Shown piece by piece: positions 10,986-62,060 of a stretch of DNA of 64,000 nucleotides. The notes under the pieces are model-generated. The model was not told where the DNA came from. It did no database searches and was given only the letters and a program-made list of their open reading frames with translations. Source of the stretch: Fimbriiglobus ruber. GTDB lineage: Bacteria > Planctomycetota > Planctomycetia > Gemmatales > Gemmataceae. A program made the position numbers and the translations under genes. Location: contig NZ_NIDE01000009.1 in the NCBI RefSeq assembly GCF_002197845.1, positions 62,001 through 126,000 of the forward strand, in the 5' to 3' direction. Within the stretch, counting starts at the first letter, position 1; each line of letters begins with the position of its first letter.

Positions 10986-11005
10986 CCCCCATCGGAGAAG
11001 CTTCC

Positions 11006-11884
11006 GTGCCCCGGCCGACCCGGCGAATGATGGCTTCCGCCGTCGCGGTCTGCGCGACTGCCGCACTGGCGGCGTGGCTCTATCCGTCCGCCGGGTCGGG
11101 CGGGATGGTGTACGCCGCCCCCGGCGGCGAACCCTTGACTTTGCATCTGGATTACCCACCCAATCGCGGCCCACGGTGTCCGGTCATTCTCTTCGCGCCC
11201 CATCGCGGGGATTGGGGGCCGTCGGCCCGGAACGACTCGCGGTGTCGGACACTGATCGAAGGACTGAACCGCCGAGGCTACGCGGTCGCCACGGCCCAGT
11301 ACAGACAGGCCGGGGTCCACCATTTCCCCGCCCAGATCGCCGACGGCAAACGCGCCGTCCGTTGGCTCCGGGCCAACGCCGACCGACTCGGACTCGCGGG
11401 CGAGCGGATTGGGGCGGTCGGCGTGTCGGCCGGCGGATACGGCGTCTGTATGTTGGGGACGGCCGAAGCGCGGGGCGGCTGCGACGAGCCCGGTGAGAAC
11501 GCGGTCAGTGCCCGGGTTCATGCCGTCGCGGCTCTTGGCGCGCCGACGGACCTGGCTTCCCGCACGTGGCCCCGGACGACCGAGCAGATTTACATCCGCC
11601 CGTATTTGGGCATGGCGTACTACGACGACCCGGAACTGTATGCCCGGGCATCCCCGCTCACCCGTGTGACTTCGGACGCGCCGCCCTTCCTGCTTTTCCA
11701 CTCGACCGACGATCGGCTCGTCCCAGTCGATCAAGCCCGGACCTTCGCCGACAAGCTTCGCCGGGCCGGGGTATCGGTCGAACTGATCGAAGAGGGTGGC
11801 GCCGAACACGTTTGGGGCGGCGAGCGGTTGGTCCGGACGGTTGACCGCCTCGGGGTGTTCTTCGACCAACATCTCCGGCCGTGA
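11006..11884 (+). CDS. Secreted alpha/beta hydrolase (esterase/lipase-like)
   Basis: A 292-aa protein with a hydrophobic N-terminal segment (about residues 8-26), so probably exported or anchored. The nucleophile elbow is GVSAGG with Ser141; the acid is Asp235 or Asp236 in HSTDDRLVP and the base is His268 in GGAEHVWGG, in the normal order of the fold. The overall pattern resembles the BD-FAE/acetyl esterase group of planctomycetes, but the substrate cannot be read from the sequence. The GTG start has GGAGAAG five bases upstream; an ATG at 11027 would shorten the signal segment. Only 20 bp separate it from the lipoprotein gene, suggesting one transcript. Confidence 0.85.
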   Translation: MPRPTRRMMASAVAVCATAALAAWLYPSAGSGGMVYAAPGGEPLTLHLDYPPNRGPRCPVILFAPHRGDWGPSARNDSRCRTLIEGLNRRGYAVATAQYRQAGVHHFPAQIADGKRAVRWLRANADRLGLAGERIGAVGVSAGGYGVCMLGTAEARGGCDEPGENAVSARVHAVAALGAPTDLASRTWPRTTEQIYIRPYLGMAYYDDPELYARASPLTRVTSDAPPFLLFHSTDDRLVPVDQARTFADKLRRAGVSVELIEEGGAEHVWGGERLVRTVDRLGVFFDQHLRP

Positions 11885-11885
11885 C

Positions 11886-12460
11886 GCCGGTCAGACTCAA
11901 TCCGGTATCAACTTGATCACGGTGCCGACGCTCGCCCTCATGGGCCCGACCCGGCCGACCGTGTTCGCCCACATCCCCGACGTCGAATGCCTGGAGTCCG
12001 ACCGGCTCGAGTGTACGGGGTGCCACTTCCGGACCCCATTCCGTCCGGCCTGCGACCAGGGGTGCATGTCGCTGTACTCGCTCTACCCGGACGGCGTTCT
12101 GGACGCGGCGCTCGCGAGAATCCGCGGGCGTCGGAACCGCGTGGCCCTATCGCGAGCCGGTGACGGCCCGCGAACAGCGGGCGTGCGAACCGACCCCGGG
12201 CGTTCGTCCCCCGCCCCGGCGGGGGAACGCGATCTGACGGGGTTCGCCGTTCTGGCGCCCGGCTCGGCCGACCGGACCCGCGCGTGGCCGCACGCCACGT
12301 GGCTCGAACTGGAGGGAGTATTGACCGCCGTCGGCTACCGGACGGCCGTGTTGTATGAGACGACACGGACTGGGTGGATTGCCCGGGCGTCCGCGCGGCT
12401 CTCGCGGAGGTGCTGCCCGGGGAGCCGGTGCAGAAGCCGACAGCCTACCAGGGAGTCGGG
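11886..12460 (+). pseudogene. Fragments of a glycosyltransferase family 9-like protein
   Basis: Directly after the hydrolase stop an open frame reads VPTLALMGPTRPTVFAH, then CTGCHFRTPFRPACDQGCMS. This is the usual C-terminal part of heptosyltransferase-like (GT9) proteins. Further on comes FAVLAPGSADRTRAWPHATW with LELEGVLTAVGYRTAVLYE, which looks like the start of another GT9 domain. There is no start codon context and the preceding domain is missing, so this is a truncated remnant. The boundaries are approximate. The frame continues to 12518 with no recognisable content. Confidence 0.55.
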
Positions 12461-12479
12461 CGGAAATCGGGCTGACGGT

Positions 12480-12897
12480 CGCGGTCCCGCCGACCGCCAC
12501 GGGAGGCGGAAGGTGTAGTCGCCGTACCGGTCCTTGGCGCCGCCGGCGTCCTCCCACCCGTACTGATATCCTGATATCCGCCGACGCGCCACAGGCGGAC
12601 GGTCGTGTTCGCCCGGATGGGCTCCCCGGCCGCCTGGGCCCGGTGGCAGAACGCGTCATCCTCGGCCAGGTACCACGGCTCCCCGGAACTGTCCTCGACG
12701 ACCAGCGGCTGAAAGTACGGGACCAGCGGCGGCCCGAACCACTGGCGACACGGTCTCAGCCCCAGGTGGCCGCGGACACGGTCGAATACCTCCCGACGGG
12801 TGAGGACGAACCTGAGCCCGGCGGACAAGATGTCGATCACTTCGCCGGACCGGCCGAACCGGACCCGGTCGGATTCCGTCGATACACTATCCCCGCT
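12480..12897 (-). pseudogene. GT-A glycosyltransferase C-terminal fragment with 8-bp duplication
   Basis: On the minus strand the frame reads IDILSAGLRFVLTRREVFD, then VPYFQPLVV and WYLAEDDAFCHRAQAAGE, then NTTVRLWRVGGYQ. This matches the C-terminal part of planctomycete GT-A glycosyltransferases, which continues YGWEDAGG. The reading frame breaks at a tandem 8-bp repeat (CTGATATC twice, 12563-12578 on the plus strand). Removing one copy restores GGYQYGWEDAGGAKDRYGDY. The 5' part of the gene is missing, so the remnant is truncated and frameshifted. It points toward the GT9 remnant, suggesting a lost glycosylation locus. Confidence 0.65.
12563..12578. repeat. 8-bp tandem duplication that breaks the GT-A remnant
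   Basis: CTGATATC occurs twice in direct succession. Deleting one unit joins the two halves of a conserved motif in one frame, so the duplication is the likely inactivating event. Confidence 0.75.
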
Positions 12898-12920
12898 CCT
12901 CGATTCACGGAGGCTCTGCG

Positions 12921-13646
12921 ATGCGTCCCGCATTCCTGTCGGCTGCGCTGTTTCTGTCCGTCGCTCCTTTGCTCGCCGACAACGCGGTGCCGGCTCTCCC
13001 GAAGCCCGGGGCTGTGGTGATCGACGAACTCCGCGGGGAAGTGATCCTGTCGGCCAAGATCCAGATTCCGGACGGGAAGCCTTGTATCAACGAATACGGC
13101 GAGCGCATCCAGGCGTTCGCCGGCTGCGCGACGGCAGCCGGCGGGGACGCGAAGATGGCCGGGTACTTCGTCTTCCTCGTAGACGTACCGACCGAAGACG
13201 TCCACGCCGCCCTGATCAAACTCGGGTGCAAACCGCGGGTTCACTACAGCATTCAACAGGGCAAACAGCACCAGGGGCTGAAGCCGACCACGACTCCCAC
13301 GGATTACCTGCAAGGCGACCCGGTCGCACTATCGGTGTTCTGGCAGAAAGACGGCCGGTGGGTCGAGAAGCCGTACCAAGATTTCGTGACCGAGCGCGTG
13401 GTGGTAGACGGGAAGCCGGTGGAAAAACCGTGGACGCCACACTTCGTTTTCCACGGCAGCGGTGCGTTGCACAAGTCCGGGACCGGCTGCCTCGCGTGCC
13501 CGTGCGATTGCGCCGGCGGGATCATCGCGGACAACCGCAACCCGCTCTACGAGCCGAAGCCGATGGTGAAGTTCGACACGAGCAAGGTGCCGCCTGCCGG
13601 AACGCAAGTTTACGTCCGCATCCGGCCGACCATAACCAAGGAATGA
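12921..13646 (+). CDS. YdjY-domain secreted protein
   Basis: A 241-aa protein starting MRPAFLSAALFLSVAPLLAD, a clear signal peptide. The segment VVIDELRGEVILSAKIQIPDGKP opens the YdjY domain seen in planctomycetes, and DVPTEDVHAALIKLGCKPRVHY is the characteristic core. A CLACPCDCAGG cysteine cluster lies at about residues 193-203. The protein is predicted to be periplasmic or surface-exposed; no biochemical activity is known for the family. The last roughly 45 codons are duplicated in diverged form at 14430-14565, on the far side of a toxin-antitoxin pair. Confidence 0.8.
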   Translation: MRPAFLSAALFLSVAPLLADNAVPALPKPGAVVIDELRGEVILSAKIQIPDGKPCINEYGERIQAFAGCATAAGGDAKMAGYFVFLVDVPTEDVHAALIKLGCKPRVHYSIQQGKQHQGLKPTTTPTDYLQGDPVALSVFWQKDGRWVEKPYQDFVTERVVVDGKPVEKPWTPHFVFHGSGALHKSGTGCLACPCDCAGGIIADNRNPLYEPKPMVKFDTSKVPPAGTQVYVRIRPTITKE

Positions 13647-13647
13647 T
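13511..13647 (+). repeat. Direct repeat copy A: tail of the YdjY-domain gene
   Basis: This 137-bp stretch ends at the YdjY stop codon and is repeated with about 10 percent difference at 14430-14565. Most differences are at third codon positions. Confidence 0.85.
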
Positions 13648-13746
13648 CCTCAGCGGGGAGCCGTCCCGACTCTCCAAAAAAAACCTGATTTCACATCGCG
13701 TTTGGTAAGATTTCTAGGGGTCATCAATCGCTGACAGGGTACACCC

Positions 13747-14004
13747 ATGAGTACGATCACGTTGCAGGATGCCCAAAACAGTCTGGCTGATCTGGTTCAT
13801 AACTTATCAATGGGCCAGGTCGTCACAATTACCGAAAACGATCGGCCGGTCGCTCGATTGGTGCCCGTGCCCGCTATCGAACAGCGTCCACCGCGACCAC
13901 GTCCGCCAGTGACGGGTGTCCCTCAAGCCGGAACTGTACCCAATCTGGTTGTTCCTGATGACTTCAAGGCCCCGCTGGCGGAGCTGAGTGAGTACTCGGA
14001 ATGA
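13747..14004 (+). CDS. Phd/YefM-type antitoxin
   Basis: An 85-aa protein: ITLQDAQNSLADLVHNLSMG followed by VTITENDRPVARLVPV is the Phd/YefM N-terminal DNA-binding and dimerisation domain. The C-terminal part is proline-rich and should wrap the toxin. It neutralises the adjacent VapC toxin and, as in the family, probably represses its own operon. The stop overlaps the toxin start by 4 bp (ATGA), indicating translational coupling. The pair sits between two copies of the YdjY gene tail. Confidence 0.9.
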   Translation: MSTITLQDAQNSLADLVHNLSMGQVVTITENDRPVARLVPVPAIEQRPPRPRPPVTGVPQAGTVPNLVVPDDFKAPLAELSEYSE

Positions 14005-14387
14005 GACTTCTTTTGGACACGTGCGCTCTGCTGTGGCTCCTGGGAAACGATCGCAAGCTATCCGTTACGGCCAGATCGGCTTTGTTGGATCCGGCCAACG
14101 AACGTTGGCTTTCACCGATTTCCTTGCTGGAGATTGCTCTTAAGGTTCGCCTCGGAAAACTGCCTCTACCCAAGGCTTACGCGGATTTGTTTCCCGCAGA
14201 ACTCATCGGGAATGACATCCATTTGGTGCCACTGGAACCGGATCACATGGAGCCGCTAACGACGTTGCCGCTTCATCACAAAGATCCTTTCGATCGACTC
14301 ATTGCCTCCACAGCACTGGTCGAGGGCTTGACCCTTGTCTCGGCCGATTTGGCCTTCGATGCTTATGGCATCAACCGCATCTGGTGA
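14001..14387 (+). CDS. vapC: VapC-type PIN-domain toxin
   Basis: A 128-aa PIN ribonuclease. The acidic residues expected for metal binding are all present: Asp6 (LLLDTCALLW), Glu44 (SPISLLEIALK), Asp98 (HHKDPFDRLI) and Asp116 (TLVSADLAF). The family cleaves RNA, often tRNA, when its antitoxin is degraded. It is coupled to the upstream Phd-type antitoxin by a 4-bp overlap. No sign of damage is seen. The gene symbol is by family, not by demonstrated orthology. Confidence 0.9.
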   Translation: MRLLLDTCALLWLLGNDRKLSVTARSALLDPANERWLSPISLLEIALKVRLGKLPLPKAYADLFPAELIGNDIHLVPLEPDHMEPLTTLPLHHKDPFDRLIASTALVEGLTLVSADLAFDAYGINRIW

Positions 14388-14429
14388 TACTCCATGCCGA
14401 ACCAGCACACGTTCGAAACTGTTTGATAA

Positions 14430-14565
14430 CGCCAGCGGTATCATTCCGGACAATCGCAACCCGCTTTACGAACCGAAGCCGATGGTGAAGTTCGAAACGA
14501 GCAAGGTGCCGCCTGTCGGGACGCAGGTTTACGACGCATCCGGCCGACCGTAACCAAGGAATGAT
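14430..14565 (+). pseudogene. Direct repeat copy B: stranded tail of a YdjY-domain gene
   Basis: This segment encodes SGIIPDNRNPLYEPKPMV and KFETSKVPPVGTQVY, nearly identical to the end of the intact YdjY gene, but lacks everything before it. Changes relative to copy A are mostly silent, so this copy diverged as a working gene before truncation. A one-base deletion near 14533 then shifted the final codons. Confidence 0.85.
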
Positions 14566-14693
14566 TACCGTCGCGTTATAAGGCACAACGCCGACGCTAC
14601 CTTCGTGGCGAAGGCATTTTTACAATACGAAGCCAATTTGTCGCAAGTCGTATCCTGAATTCAGATTAGATCCATTGTGTTGTGGGCGCATGC

Positions 14694-14739
14694 TTTCGCC
14701 GTTGGAGCCCCGGCTAAAGCCGGGGCTCCAACGGCGAAA
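14694..14739. repeat. Perfect 46-nt palindrome
   Basis: Two 22-nt arms (left arm TTTCGCCGTTGGAGCCCCGG plus CT) are exact reverse complements with a 2-nt AA loop. It lies 17 bp past the end of the pirin gene and could end its transcript. The GGAGCCCCGGCT core is of the type dispersed through large planctomycete genomes. Confidence 0.85.
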
Positions 14740-16614: not shown

Positions 16615-17337
16615 GGGTTCAAAGCCGGGGCATCAGGTGTGCAAAGCGAGTGGCTCTCGCTCAAATCTGTTTGCCAAGTCACTGCCAGTAAGACATTTGC
16701 GATTCAGATGTATTCTGGCCCGACTCGCCTGAGCCAGCCACCGGGCCAGATCAAACCCTGTTTAATTGAGAACAAGTCTCAATATCATTCGTCCTGAATA
16801 GCTTAAATTGATTTCACGGGTGGTCAAGGAGGACGCGGCAAATTTGACCTGAAATAGTGCTGATTGCCCGGTAGTGGGCGGTGTTGTAAGGCACGCAATA
16901 GCGTGCCGTCGCTTCCCGCGGCAAGAGCGGCACGCTATTGCGTGCCTACAACACCGCCCGCTACCCAAAAATGGACCGCCGGAGAATTTGGCGGAGGGAA
17001 GGCTTTCGCACAAAACCCTTCGTCATTTGCGGACTTGTTTTCCCCGGTAAGTGGTTGTCGCGAGCCGGATTCCACGGGCAAGTTTCACCAACTCTCCGAG
17101 AAGCATTCACCGGACCGTCCGTTCGGTGGTAGAATTCCTCTGTCTAGAGTCTAACGCGGCTGCTCGGTCGTCTCGTTTTTTCCTGGGCCGTATCGTACTC
17201 TTGGTCGCAAGTTCCGATTCAGCGTGTGTGTGGCGTTCGGGCGGACTTACCGTGTGAACCGCCAGCTCCTAGTCCGACTGCCCGGATTGCCTCGAAAAAT
17301 CGTTGGCGACCCAGTCCGTGTGTGCTGAGATAAGTGC
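16615..17337. other. Long intergenic region with one near-palindromic element
   Basis: No gene is supported in this 720-bp gap. Besides the inverted repeat at 16870-16966, it must carry the promoters of the divergent PepSY gene and the orphan membrane protein. No promoter motif was clear. Confidence 0.5.
16870..16966. repeat. 97-bp near-perfect inverted repeat element
   Basis: The arms (16870-16908 and 16928-16966, about 39 nt each) contain GGCGGTGTTGTA and GGCACGCAATAGCGTGCC and differ by one inserted A and one G/T change. Each arm holds its own smaller palindrome (GGCACGC AATA GCGTGCC). This nested layout is more like a small mobile repeat than a terminator. Confidence 0.8.
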
Positions 17338-61903: not shown

Positions 61904-62060
61904 GACACACGGGAAACGGTGACGGCCGACACCAGGCCGGTCGGCGTGTAGCACGGGTCGGAGAATCCTGGTGCCAACCCGCACCCTCTCCTGTTTGCGA
62001 AAAATCGTGGGCGCAATTTTCTGTGGCCGAGCGTTCCGATCTGGATCACCTCCTCAGGTG

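Follow-up and report, generated by a model that had tools for sequence, protein, structure and literature searches.

Long direct repeats of neighbouring gene sequence around a Phd/VapC pair of Fimbriiglobus ruber and other toxin-antitoxin pairs: a probable footprint of target-duplicating insertion

The closest described precedent for the locus reported here comes from restriction-modification (RM) genes, which in Helicobacter pylori insert with long target duplication (Nobusato et al., 2000; Furuta et al., 2010; both as cited in PMC3874152, PMC3031569 and PMC1643837). Such duplications are described for some RM systems as long and variable, in the order of 100 bp (PMC3874152; likewise PMC3031569 and PMC1643837), and the original report is cited for RM genes in PMC2654758. 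In the available parts of PMC3874152, PMC2654758 and PMC3031569, long target duplication concerns RM genes, and toxin-antitoxin (TA) systems are mentioned as well; the mobility of both RM and TA genes is often put down to their being carried on a known mobile element (review PMC3874152). Transposed genes of Arabidopsis, a eukaryote, also lie between direct repeats that are mostly genic and share homology with the target site; for these, the proposed mechanism is that a circular product inserts (PMC2869330). For the question of how chromosomal TA pairs move without a transposase, the locus of F. ruber described here hints at a route. Like the RM insertions of H. pylori, it presents a unit predicted to be selfish and host-killing between long and variable direct repeats of the target in the order of 100 bp: the repeats sit tightly around the insert, and their length ranges from 51 to 278 bp over ten loci. 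In contrast to these insertions, what lies between the repeats is a type II TA pair, the inserts measure 641-953 bp at VapC loci of the same family, the occurrence is in a planctomycete family and a few other groups, and no strain-level empty site was found. Among open-licence papers, as represented by titles and the opening of abstracts, no report of such duplications for TA pairs was recognised; as far as these searches go, this kind of footprint is known, and finding it again around Phd-VapC and ParE pairs is new within that literature. The footprint, a 50-280 bp direct repeat of a neighbour around a TA insert of 0.5-1 kb, can be counted in any genome, and it links TA pairs to the published behaviour of RM genes.

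The window, i.e., the whole stretch of 64,000 nucleotides that was analyzed, covers positions 62,001 to 126,000 of contig NZ_NIDE01000009.1 (C9) in a genome of 12.36 Mb in 20 contigs. The features of the locus are listed in Table 1. In agreement with the first-pass annotation of this DNA, the Phd/VapC pair was found between the end of the YdjY gene and a second copy of that end: R1 and R2 share 89.8% identity over 137 columns (E 2e-48 to 5e-48). Among the 20 largest of 54 repeat families, in whose listing they are broken into pieces of 109 and 31 nt, no other direct repeat at 10-18 kb exceeds 32 nt in length. The deletion that shifts the frame of R2 lies near its 3' end, and a copy that has no evident function and is decaying is the best explanation for R2. 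The insert extends 99 bp ahead of the antitoxin start and 42 bp past the toxin stop; its reading frames of at least 50 aa are those of the TA pair and short overlapping ones, and no transposase-sized frame was detected in these 782 bp. The genes for Phd and VapC are adjacent and overlap by 4 bp, and both domains score above curated cut-offs. By domain content, gene order and overlap, the pair is a predicted Phd/VapC type II TA module like others of its kind; the flanking duplication is no defining feature of that family. Residues D6, E44, D95 and D116 of VapC, which we take to be the conserved acidic PIN residues with a catalytic role, are invariant across 12 aligned sequences.

Table 1. Features of the repeat-flanked toxin-antitoxin locus (positions in the window)
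Feature	Position	Strand	Domain match
YdjY-domain protein gene, 241 aa, intact	12921..13646	+	NCBIfam NF040466, 111.6 bits (cut-off 50)
R1, repeat copy inside the intact YdjY gene: its final 136 bp and 1 further base	13511..13647	+	
Inserted segment, 782 bp, with the TA pair inside	13648..14429	+	
Phd/YefM-type antitoxin gene, 85 aa	13747..14004	+	PF02604, 30.7 bits (cut-off 29.8); TIGR01552
VapC-type PIN toxin gene, 128 aa	14001..14387	+	PF01850, 56.2 bits (cut-off 23.6)
R2, YdjY tail in second copy, frameshifted by a 1-nt deletion	14430..14565	+	

The state of the locus in relatives that lack the pair was assessed from YdjY protein matches, which were obtained in six of the 94 other family genomes and comprise five full orthologues and a 27-residue match at a contig edge (G073); two genomes of the same genus were searched and gave no match to the YdjY gene of the window. 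Apart from two short weak matches, each of the five full orthologue loci has a single tail, and the 9.9-20 kb available per locus gave no hit to a TA gene (tblastn, E 0.01). A WD40-like gene, recognised by eye, follows YdjY in four of these five loci, the place that the TA pair takes in the window. The DNA to the right of R2 has no match in the five loci, and no close strain was found with an exact empty site, in which the left flank, a single repeat and the right flank would follow each other. A second locus, L177, carries a ParE-type pair behind the stop codon of an altronate-dehydratase-like gene; in all seven relatives searched this gene has one full tail and no pair behind it, with 170 nt visible beyond the stop codon in G061, a split over two contigs in G060 and about 1.5 kb in the others. 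At these two loci, YdjY and L177, the repeat is target sequence that is present as a single copy in relatives without the unit. The VapC locus L116 presents further states: G082 shows the upstream genes with a single tail but lacks the pair and has another gene downstream, G083 (contig C63) shows a tail remnant and the downstream gene, the upstream gene and the pair being absent, and in G084 (contig C160) the left flank and repeat are followed by 97 nt of right flank and then the contig end. The last case reflects either a longer duplication or a mixed bin and was not counted as an empty site.

Flanking repeats were surveyed around the VapC pairs of the family Gemmataceae, which occupy 95 distinct places, 88 of them with enough flank. 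Direct repeats around the pair were present at 13 of the 88 loci and went undetected by the repeat test at the remaining 75. The first-pass annotation had named TA pairs without such flanks, and second tails without a TA pair, as outcomes against its reading: the former thus occur, the latter occurs at another locus (the G083 contig described above, where the upstream gene is missing as well), and the duplication model still stands. Leaving out L079, which was rejected as a clean case since its repeats lie well away from the pair, and counting the orthologous L111, L113 and L116 once, ten loci result (the window, L026, L033, L075, L078, L081, L082, L090, L098 and L116). Their repeats are 80-99% identical, and besides the TA pair the upstream side of each insert holds about 0.3 kb at most. 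The downstream copy starts -2 to 67 bp from the toxin stop at all ten. The repeats differ from locus to locus, the orthologous set and one 23-bp match excepted; in a comparison of 19 loci that included ParE loci, repeats were alike only at L213 and L224, which are one locus in two genomes.

The origin of the repeat could mostly be traced to the end or the start region of a neighbouring gene. R1 coincides with the end of the upstream frame at the window, L075, L090 and L116, the frames at the latter three matching ResIII, Methylase_S and, weakly, DUF7245, respectively, and it ends one base after the stop codon at the window, L177 and L267. At L033, L078 and L082, R2 lies at or just ahead of the start of the downstream gene and the repeat is that start region. 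The repeat of L026 is mostly intergenic and that of L081 has competing frames. At L098 (2882-4985), the end of an MmeI-type restriction gene is present in three full or partial copies that separate and flank the TA unit and a second PIN unit. RM-type genes adjoin four flanked TA pairs (L075, L090, L098 and L213). At L026 (366-2163), one copy of the 278-bp repeat lies behind the Phd-VapC pair and another behind a small two-gene unit that appears TA-like by eye (DUF433/DUF5615-type).

Repeats of this kind were also observed around ParE pairs and outside the family. In 30 family ParE loci (94,475 bases), exactly three repeat pairs were obtained at the thresholds used, and all three straddle the TA pair (L177, L187 and L202). 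A wider VapC set of 80 loci from many phyla, reduced to 74 by dropping six duplicates, contained nine flanked loci, of which six are clean: L208, L213, L224, L236, L267 and L280. L208 was kept as a weak case, with three copies and the upstream one 357 bp before the antitoxin. As L213 and L224 share 80.6% identity over 1,647 bp and count as one, five clean events remain, which does not change the overall picture; the clean cases include the isolates Brasilonema bromeliae and Larkinella rosea. L270 was downgraded due to a downstream copy 245 bp behind the toxin, and L112, L241, L248 and L304 were rejected as target-type flanks because the repeat overlaps the TA pair, as in partial tandem copies. 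Target-type flanks were found at none of 16 plasmid VapC loci (16 of 54 records). In an Oscillospiraceae metagenome-assembled genome (L230, 5391-6962), chained repeats enclosing PIN-like frames were seen behind a VapC pair, one frame scoring just below the Pfam cut-off and the other having no match.

The association of repeats with TA pairs was compared to the DNA around them. In 686,755 bases at 100 VapC places, a count that takes some loci twice, 24 repeat pairs of the chosen spacing were detected, 16 flanking VapC and eight not; TA genes, counted as VapC plus 300 bp, make up 9.9% of these bases. With eight orthologous or duplicate loci dropped, 11 of 91 family VapC loci were flanked, one of the 11 (L112) by a TA-internal repeat, as compared to a mean of 1.75 and a maximum of 6 upon random placement, and none of 2000 trials reached 11. 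For the wider VapC set, 9 of 74 loci compared to a mean of 1.45, none of 2000 trials reaching 9; dropping L224 brings the count to 8 of 73, and the random-placement figures stand for 9 of 74. For ParE, 3 of 24 full-length loci were flanked, which 12 of 2000 trials reached. The random placement is conservative, because the repeats used are largely those around TA pairs. The repeat pairs that do not flank VapC, eight in the family set and 20 in the wider set, proved heterogeneous: those at L098, L218, L278 and one of two at L253 enclose other TA domains over the cut-off, those at L230, L248 and L217 enclose weak or partial TA domains, and those at L205, L222, L245, L252 and L249 appear by eye to be repetitive or tandem coding sequence. 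Furthermore, the pair at L216 lies over an ABC transporter gene and that at L097 encloses one frame; for the remaining pairs (L025, L029, L047, L050, L056 and the second of L253), nothing TA-like was recognised in those examined.

Taken together, we regard it as probable that the Phd-VapC pair inserted behind the YdjY gene with duplication of about 136 bp of the target in the same event. Following this, we propose that a minimal Phd-VapC operon would have inserted immediately behind the YdjY stop codon, and that the same event would have duplicated about 136 bp of target, leaving one copy of the tail on each side. The upstream copy would have remained part of a working gene, while the downstream copy would be free to decay. 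That duplication and insertion were one event is what we infer; such a structure may have arisen, for instance, by repair of two nicks far from each other, or by a template switch into TA DNA followed by a return to a point further upstream. Once in place, the repeats would permit later exchange in the form of conversion, amplification or loss, and addiction to the toxin would penalise loss and thereby keep the repeats from collapsing. The first-pass annotation was right in treating the flanks as informative on how the module arrived and in placing it at a gene end. It is possible, and suggested here tentatively, that target-duplicating insertion serves type II TA pairs of the Phd-VapC and ParE types across phyla as a general, transposase-free way of settling, in which both neighbours would stay intact since their shared end is copied, and in which later exchange between the repeats would amplify the pair or addiction would stop its deletion.

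What competes with such a TA-specific route of movement, and not with the duplication itself, is survivorship: insertions with long duplications may occur with any DNA, the repeats collapsing unless an addiction module lies between them. We hold this to be possible though somewhat doubtful, and it may lie behind much of the enrichment. In its favour, repeats occur more often around TA pairs than around the other DNA of these loci. Signs of exchange between repeats are in line with it. In a FastTree phylogeny of the repeat copies, the two repeats of G080 are grouped with each other, as are those of G081 and those of G084 (support 0.84, 0.83 and 0.96, respectively), as if they had been homogenised by gene conversion. 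The pattern is not uniform, and against survivorship the upstream repeat of G085 clusters with that of G086, across genomes (support 0.87). Moreover, the ends of two contigs of G085 (C285 and C179; L141 and L135) share an identical 55 nt, and its two TA units are 96.2% identical over 1,103 columns, which suggests a gene-R-TA-R-TA-R-gene array formed by repeat-driven amplification; a mixture of strains could also explain it. The footprint provides insertions of different ages, on which one can ask whether it is preserved by addiction or by a special route of insertion.

An improbable alternative to duplication of the target at the window is that foreign DNA brought in the pair together with a homologous YdjY tail. 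Recombination at this tail would have joined one side and an illegitimate event the other, leaving two tails of different origin. The 10% difference between the copies is in line with it, gene-end homology would be a natural anchor, and the insert is AT-richer than its surroundings (GC 52-60% as compared to 61-78% at 11000 to 13599, in 200-bp windows). However, R2 is 90% identical to R1 over 136 bp, and the five orthologues are all more distant from it (75-82% over 59-125 bp). Relatives of the TA pair at 71-72% identity (G060, G028, G032 and G042) reside in genomes without a match to this YdjY protein. Flanks are also present at 12 other family loci, some of them derived from the start of the downstream gene, each of which would require a donor with the same neighbour.

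Integrative elements commonly use the 3' ends of genes, and the pair could be seen as the remnant of a larger integrase-borne element with the gene end as its attachment site. This is very unlikely, as the inserts at the ten family VapC loci hold little besides the TA pair, the length and position of the repeat vary, and the repeat is a downstream gene start region at L033, L078 and L082.

Hardly tenable is the history given in the first-pass annotation, that a full second YdjY gene once existed and lost its front half, which the TA pair may have replaced. The gene end alone is present twice, a search of the own genome (E 0.001 or better) gave no third YdjY-like place, no full second YdjY gene was found in the 95 family genomes (own included), and the relatives in which such a gene was to be sought display the single tails described above. 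The argument for a once working second copy had been that the copies differ mostly silently, which is weakly true: ahead of the deletion, 12 codons differ by 13 bases, seven of these codons silently and five with a residue change. If all changes had fallen on an unconstrained copy, 23-34% of them would be expected to be silent, and about 62-67% if half had fallen on the branch of the intact gene. The observed 7 of 13 fits the latter expectation, so that constraint on the intact copy alone accounts for the silent share, without the second copy ever having had to be functional. Of the five codons with a residue change, four encode in all five orthologues the same amino acid as in the intact copy.

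Integron arrays often contain TA pairs, and a gene followed by a repeat resembles the order in such arrays; nevertheless, a gene cassette with attC sites as repeats is extremely improbable, since properly paired cores were present at the repeat ends in none of 15 loci searched with the two 7-bp core motifs and R1 is coding sequence in the window. A classical DNA transposon was rejected, as the insert holds no transposase-sized frame and the duplication, about 136 bp and variable between loci, is not short and fixed.

The DNA to the right of R2 contains several small repeats of its own. A small AT-rich dispersed repeat lies 41 bp from R2 (14606-14681) and has eight other partial matches in the own genome, of which two were aligned, one of them located between convergent frames. 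It is followed by a perfect 22-bp inverted repeat with a 2-bp loop (14694-14739), pieces of which match a few other family genomes, and further downstream (16870-16965) nested inverted repeats of 20 bp (perfect) and 19 bp (95%) were observed.
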